Made by a program: the position numbers and the translations under genes. 41,183 bases of DNA from Opitutales bacterium (GTDB lineage Bacteria; Verrucomicrobiota; Verrucomicrobiia; Opitutales; UBA953), in assembly GCA_007280935.1 (NCBI GenBank), contig QYQK01000007.1:1-41183 (forward strand), in the 5' to 3' direction. Numbering within the stretch: position 1 is the first letter of the stretch; every line of letters starts with the position of its first letter. This document shows positions 25,009-25,733 of the stretch, one piece after another. The notes below the pieces were generated by a model. The model saw only the letters and a program-made list of their open reading frames with translations, ran no database searches and was not told the DNA's origin.

Positions 25009-25079
25009 AGTCCGATGGTGTAATGGTAGCACAGGAGTTTTTGGTTCTCCTTGTCCAGGTTCAAATCCTGGTCGGACTA
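25009..25079 (+). tRNA. tRNA-Gln (anticodon TTG)
   Basis: A 71-base cloverleaf. The acceptor stem is AGTCCGA (25009-25015) with TCGGACT (25072-25078) and discriminator A at 25079. The D arm is GTG/CAC with loop TAATGGTAG. The anticodon stem is GGAG/CTCC with a T-T apposition at the fifth pair, and the loop TTTTGGT gives anticodon TTG at 25041-25043, reading CAA. The T arm is CCAGG/CCTGG with loop TTCAAAT. CCA is not encoded (CGT follows). The A1-U72 pair differs from the U1-A72 of E. coli tRNA-Gln. It sits alone on the plus strand between pyrH and efp. Confidence 0.92.
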
Positions 25080-25118
25080 CGTACCTTTTCACGAAATCGC
25101 TCGTTGGCTTATTGGGGC

Positions 25119-25169: not shown

Positions 25170-25733
25170 TTAAGCGCGTCCGAGGTATTCCTTATTCTCG
25201 GTGCTGACCTTGATCTTCTCGCCCTGCTTGATGAAAAGCGGGACGTTGACCGTGAGGCCGTTTTCGCAGGTCACGGACTTCTGGACGTTGCCAGCCGTGT
25301 CGCCTTTAACGGCGGGCGGGGCTTCGAGGACTTCGACGATGACCGAAGGGGGAAGGTCGACGGTGACGGGTTTATCTTCGACGAAGAGAACCATGTAAGA
25401 GGTGCCAGGGATGAGGAATTCCTTAGAGTCTTCGAGGGAGGACGCGGAGATGTAAAATTCATCATTGGTGTTCACGTCGACGAAGACGTAGCTGCCGTCG
25501 GCTTCGTAGGAGAGCTCGAGGGATTTGATGTTGTTGTCGAAGACTTCAAAGCTGACTCCGATGCCGCATCGGACCGGGATCTTGGCGCCGGTTTTGATGG
25601 AGCGGAGTTCCATCTGGACGTAAGAGGCGTTGTTCGGGGGGGTGCGCACGAGACACTCGAGAACGATGCAGAGCTCACCATTGTAGCTCATGATGTTCTT
25701 CTTCTTGATGCGATTGACGGATATGGTTGCCAT
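25170..25733 (-). CDS. efp: Elongation factor P
   Basis: A 187-residue three-domain translation factor. The N-terminal KOW-like domain holds the loop that reaches the peptidyl-transferase centre, then two OB-fold domains follow, with the EF-P signature region around SVTCENGLTVNVPLFIK and a C-terminal KEYLGRA. EF-P relieves stalling at polyproline. The tip loop here is RTPPNNAS (residues 30-37): the position of the modified Lys34 of E. coli is Asn34 by alignment back from the LRSIKTG strand. No lysine lies in the loop and the only arginine, Arg30, is outside the apex. No EpmA or EarP gene is in the window. The gene has its own terminator; no Shine-Dalgarno sequence precedes it. Confidence 0.93.
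   Translation of the reverse strand: MATISVNRIKKKNIMSYNGELCIVLECLVRTPPNNASYVQMELRSIKTGAKIPVRCGIGVSFEVFDNNIKSLELSYEADGSYVFVDVNTNDEFYISASSLEDSKEFLIPGTSYMVLFVEDKPVTVDLPPSVIVEVLEAPPAVKGDTAGNVQKSVTCENGLTVNVPLFIKQGEKIKVSTENKEYLGRA

Follow-up and report, generated by a model that had tools for sequence, protein, structure and literature searches.

The elongation factor P (EF-P) of an Opitutales bacterium carries asparagine at the apex of its tip loop, where E. coli EF-P has the lysine (Lys34) that is modified, and none of the EF-P copies read from its class, the Verrucomicrobiia, has lysine at this position. We favour, at a probability of roughly 0.58, the reading that EF-P lysylation was lost in the class, whose EF-P would function with its tip unmodified; in this organism two consecutive prolines, Pro32-Pro33, would stiffen it.

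An ordinary single EF-P

The efp gene occupies positions 25170–25733 on the minus strand of the window (the whole 41,183-nucleotide stretch of DNA analysed), starts with ATG and encodes 187 residues; it was assigned from Pfam, NF001810 and the comparison of an AlphaFold model with the PDB. All three EF-P domains score above their Pfam cut-offs (PF08207, PF01132 and PF09285), and the KOW-like, OB and C-terminal domains follow one another in the order of the family. The protein exceeds the cut-off of NCBIfam NF001810 'elongation factor P' (166.2 against 161 bits) and, at 162.4 bits, misses the 185.8 required by the efp equivalog TIGR00038. Because TIGR00038 is matched in 14 of 14 control genomes, and above cut-off in just 10 of them, we regard it as a strict test and do not take it to exclude EF-P. 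The protein is not of the EfpL (YeiP) type, scoring 104.2 of 216 bits against NF003392 and 88.4 of 264 against TIGR02178 and having a seven-residue loop. The best PDB matches of the AlphaFold model (43-sequence alignment, mean pLDDT 86.1, pTM 0.62) are EF-Ps, with the Corynebacterium protein 6s8z giving the top TM-score among the matches listed (0.84).

One efp was found in the host genome, which is 83.5% complete, and the second canonical copy that the earlier note had envisaged as a possible refutation was not found there. An efp search of 57 genomes (our organism and its relatives) gave a match in 47, with two matches in G032 alone, both fragments. The window gene is the organism's ordinary single EF-P. 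The gene lies upstream of what we take from their sequences to be pyrH and frr, on the same (minus) strand, and other genes nearby, recognised by eye, are presumably sucC, sucD and an ABC transporter. A tRNA-Gln gene (anticodon TTG; 25009–25080, plus strand) sits between efp and pyrH. None of these protein-coding neighbours resembles a modifier gene.

Asparagine at the apex of the tip loop

Residues 30–38, RTPPNNASY, are encoded by bases 25620–25646. The window protein aligns with E. coli EF-P (a reference sequence identical to NC_000913.3) without a gap in the tip, setting TPPNNAS against KPGKGQA and pairing Asn34 with Lys34. In the AlphaFold model strands span residues 20–30 and 38–45, and the β3-Ω-β4 loop therefore comprises residues 31–37 (25623–25643, minus strand), the standard seven residues with Asn34 at the centre. 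The AAC codon of Asn34 lies at 25632–25634, those of Pro32-Pro33, immediately ahead of the tip, at 25635–25640, and that of Arg30, a basic residue at the loop base in the alignment of class copies, at 25644–25646, all on the minus strand; Arg30 ends strand 3 in the model and is not at the apex. The earlier note had counted Asn34 into the place of Lys34 and described an apex without lysine or arginine, and alignment and model bear out both points.

Among 79 loci selected by at least 75% identity to the window protein rather than by motif, 78 read RTPPNNASY, and in the remaining one (L078) the tip lies outside the alignment; the number of organisms is below 79, as several public records and genomes are evidently the same contigs. 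Because 78 of 79 loci agree, the Asn tip is not a matter of chance or assembly error. Codon usage was compared in 63 full-length loci chosen by identity, among which the DNA takes 46 distinct forms. Synonymous change is seen at every codon of the stretch 30–38, Pro32-Pro33 included, while the residue stays the same, and Asn34 is encoded by AAC in 44 versions and AAT in 2. Across the 63 loci 113 of 180 residues are invariant, and residues 30–38 (nine) form the second-longest invariant run after residues 137–152 (16). The tip is thus conserved in the genus, yet not exceptionally, and an invariant tip would fit the substrate of an enzyme as well as an unmodified loop.

Two public records (L046 and L052) contain this genus's EF-P at 91% identity under the titles Polynucleobacter meluiroseus and Akkermansia muciniphila; these titles look wrong, or the bins mixed.

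Tip residues in the class and beyond

The alignment of EF-P across the Verrucomicrobiota that the earlier note had proposed separates the class copies from the non-EfpL copies read outside it at position 34. In the class this position is Asn in 93 copies, Arg in 34 and Lys in none (127 copies read, excluding one unreadable L078 piece, in a set where the same genome can be present twice); public loci L032–L090 were placed in the class by the titles of their records and by the tree described below. Lys34 is present in all 51 non-EfpL copies read from outside the class (46 of 46, then another 5 of 5). These come from a set made up of the 30 best-scoring copies plus chosen ones rather than a random draw, which also includes 7 EfpL copies. 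The Asn tip that the earlier note had treated as a trait of this EF-P is therefore real here but not peculiar to it, being part of a class that lacks Lys34 in all 127 copies.

The commonest class tips are RTPPNNASY (65 copies, sister genus included), RTQGRQAGF (25), RTPGNLRAF (25) and K[CT]PPRMASY (6), and RTPGNLRGF, RTPPNMRSF, RTPPNLTSF, RTPGRRLGF, RTPGRRMAF and RTRGRGSGW occur once each. Pro33 and Ser37 are found together in 17 of 17 Pro33 copies of the tree set, against 2 of 76 Gly33 copies, a comparison that draws on few lineages; the pairing is present in both Asn-tipped and Arg-tipped lineages. One record of 5819 bases (L084) holds two EF-P-like open reading frames on opposite strands, with tips RTPGRRLGF and RTQGRQAGF, possibly a duplicated efp in a member of the class.

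In the class copies read, residue 30 is Arg, apart from Lys in the six PPR-tipped ones; in the phylum's Lys34 group it is mostly Ser, Val or Cys. This contrast, seen across the class groups of the tree, is what speaks for a different basic loop residue, Arg30 in particular, being modified or contacting the tRNA in place of Lys34. We consider such a substitution very improbable, as Arg30 is also found in the Arg34 relatives and in the Lys34 copy of genome G059, which reads RTPGKGQAV, and as it ends a strand instead of standing at the apex.

We computed a quick tree with the tip columns removed from 100 of 168 distinct sequences, a set from which we omitted 18 distant sequences, the bulk of the genus copies and the majority of the 30 best-scoring from outside the class; it was drawn from the midpoint, with SH-aLRT as the only support measure. 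The class copies group with that of G059, 69 rows in all (36 Asn, 32 Arg and 1 Lys), at a branch support of 99. Three tip changes are needed on this tree for Asn and two for Arg, and this pattern suits a tip that need not be recognised by an enzyme specific for one residue. G059 combines Lys34 with only a synthetase-like match to EpmA, and would fit, weakly and as one incomplete genome, a loss of EpmA that preceded the loss of Lys34.

Modification enzymes

The searches for epmA, epmB and earP that the earlier note had called for returned none above cut-off in the host genome or in its 56 relatives. For the phylum we sampled 155 genomes, 52 in the class and 103 outside. EpmA (TIGR00462) scores above cut-off in 61 of the 155, none of the 61 in the class. 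With a limit of E 4.3e-71, set above the 500-residue synthetase-like matches and accepting frames mostly near 300 residues, EpmA is found in 88 of the 103 genomes outside the class and in 0 of the 52 inside. A Fisher value for this contrast takes no account of relatedness, and we do not lean on it. Four class genomes have weaker matches, in frames of about 500 residues. Weaker EpmA-like matches, those in the 57 genomes included, were called synthetases by frame length alone, except for the best match in our organism's genome, which is lysyl-tRNA synthetase (TIGR00499 above cut-off). Outside the class EpmA and efp lie within 1 kb of each other in 59 of the 85 genomes listing both, with a median gap of 61 bases. 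Among the 15 outside genomes lacking an EpmA match at this limit, 11 list efp, and all 11 copies have Lys34, so that loss of EpmA is not strictly tied to loss of Lys34; in these 11 the absence of EpmA may be a true loss or the result of an incomplete assembly.

EarP was found in neither the 57 genomes nor the 155, in a search in which no control genome carries EarP. Applied to 12 other genomes, the EarP profile gave one full-length relative (248.7 bits, cut-off 347) and one weak fragment. The full-length relative (G214:C78:95658-96785, L241; E 1.2e-73) is encoded by the spirochaete of L101, whose EF-P has a PGKG-type tip.

EpmB was above cut-off in none of the 57 or the 155 genomes and, being absent by this measure outside the class too, does not separate the two groups. 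EpmB-like matches occur in 44 of the 57, our organism's genome not among them, and no EpmA was found in those 44. One such match, L208 (875–2023), scores best as a KamA-family lysine 2,3-aminomutase (484.9 bits, below the 525.4 cut-off), and inspection of six out of eight such regions showed no recognisable epmA or efp linked to the EpmB-like matches. If lysylation outside the class uses β-lysine, it would draw it from elsewhere, for example from KamA. A deoxyhypusine synthase was found in 1 of the 57 genomes (G049:C21:61176-62102, L209), from the same order and another family; this genome's EF-P has the Asn34 tip RTPGNLRAF. YmfI, which the earlier note had named beside EpmA, is a short-chain dehydrogenase.

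Open reading frames clustered from 64 efp loci (63 of the class plus G059), with flanks that vary and are often under 3 kb, include no gene that stays beside efp across the class. Besides efp and overlapping frames, the widest clusters reach 17 and 16 of the 64 loci; we take the first to resemble lpxC/fabZ and the second thymidine phosphorylase.

These results bear on the idea that Asn34 (or Asn35 or Ser37) carries an undescribed activating modification, made by an enzyme encoded away from efp, which we regard as unlikely. Such a modification would be in keeping with a tip that stays RTPPNNASY throughout the genus despite silent codon changes, and N35-A-S has what we take to be the form of an N-glycosylation sequon. 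That sequon is, however, missing from the Asn-tipped relatives TPGNLRAF, TPPNMRSF and TPPNLTSF, Asn and Arg alternate at the tip among relatives, and the class-wide comparison of efp neighbourhoods gives no linked gene. The inactivity of E. coli EF-P K34N, as given in the part of PMC6544042 drawn on here, weighs on the side of a modification. The earlier note's suggestion of an undescribed modification of Asn nevertheless gains no positive evidence from our analysis, which found no efp-linked gene and a tip that changes between Asn and Arg from one class lineage to another.

Need for polyproline relief

Substrates of EF-P would appear from the predicted proteins to persist in the host. Its own ValS contains PPP, and in 257 kb of its genome (216 kb plus the window) PP occurs in 84 and PPP in 13 of 166 crude open reading frames (at least 200 residues, some maybe false), with motif totals of 167 PP and 16 PPP. 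Within the phylum, efp is present in 144 of 148 good genomes.

Both observations count against the view that this EF-P has weakened or drifted from polyproline rescue, leaving most of that work to other factors such as ABC-F ATPases, as does the invariance of the tip in the genus. What commends that view is the score below the TIGR00038 equivalog cut-off, together with the inactive K34N variant of E. coli (in the part of PMC6544042 used here) and the ability of ABC-F ATPases to resolve such stalls reported in the cited portion of PMC11381351. On balance we think it quite unlikely.

An EF-P that may work unmodified

The explanation that we prefer is that the class lost EF-P lysylation and that the window's EF-P works with an unmodified tip. 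Of the two options raised in the earlier note, this is the better-supported half, with EpmA in 0 of 52 class genomes and EarP in 0 of 155. From the observed distribution of tips and EpmA we infer both that the tip is unmodified and what the prolines do. In the ancestor of the class EpmA would have been lost and Lys34 replaced by Asn or Arg, in that presumed order, and the association of the class with the absence of EpmA may reflect a single event. The loop would then have become functional without modification through its own sequence. E. coli EF-P K34N is inactive (PMC6544042, in the part drawn on here), and Asn alone is therefore insufficient, so that the rest of the loop must supply the function. 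In this genus that could fall to the Pro32-Pro33 pair and to NNAS as a compact arm around Asn34, with Arg30 at the loop base providing a nearby positive charge. Asn34 might contact the tRNA backbone directly, or the long arm might simply not be needed.

It is an even call whether the whole class lost lysylation and rebuilt its loop in several ways (PGN-LRA, PPN-xxS, PPR-MAS and QGR-QAG), yielding modification-free EF-Ps whose apex can be Asn. Its families presumably include Akkermansia-like and Methylacidiphilum-like bacteria. Most studied EF-Ps need a costly tip modification, and a class with neither the lysine nor the ligase offers a natural test of what is required of the tip. Its loops are candidates that might free EF-P from its partner enzyme in whichever host it is placed, and Asn-tipped EF-Ps, listed but uncharacterised in the portions of PMC6544042 and PMC11611912 considered here, become a testable category.

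Relation to known EF-P systems

With the lysine-type EF-P of E. coli (EpmA/EpmB/EpmC) the window protein shares the fold, the seven-residue loop and Pro32; it differs in having Asn34 in place of Lys34 and in a host genome in which EpmA was not found. The arginine-type EF-P of Pseudomonas, which is rhamnosylated by EarP, is approached by the class relatives with TQGRQAG, which share Arg34 without Pro32, whereas the window protein has Asn34 together with Pro32 and none of the 155 genomes gave an EarP. An actinobacterial subgroup of EF-P, reportedly the subject of work by Pinheiro in 2020, is said to be unmodified and stiffened; it resembles the window protein in working unmodified, as we propose here, and differs in having no Asn tip. 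The actinobacterial unmodified EF-P keeps its lysine. Function without modification has been argued for EfpL and for stiffer loops (PMC11611912, in the part cited), and the EfpL loop, functional unmodified as we propose for the window protein, is longer and carries Arg rather than Asn.

Closest to the window protein are the Asn-tipped EF-Ps already in print. They were reported in 2019 with Pro32 in 100% of Asn cases (PMC6544042), and Asn appears beside Gln, Met, Ser and Gly in a 2024 list of tips (PMC11611912). Like the window protein they have Asn34, and all cases in PMC6544042 have its Pro32; the portions of both papers cited here give no host group, function or enzyme pattern for Asn. Here, by contrast, Asn is tied to one class without a found EpmA, and its PP-N form, with Pro33, is described. 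The Asn tip itself is thus already known in print, and what is possibly new is the class-wide pattern.
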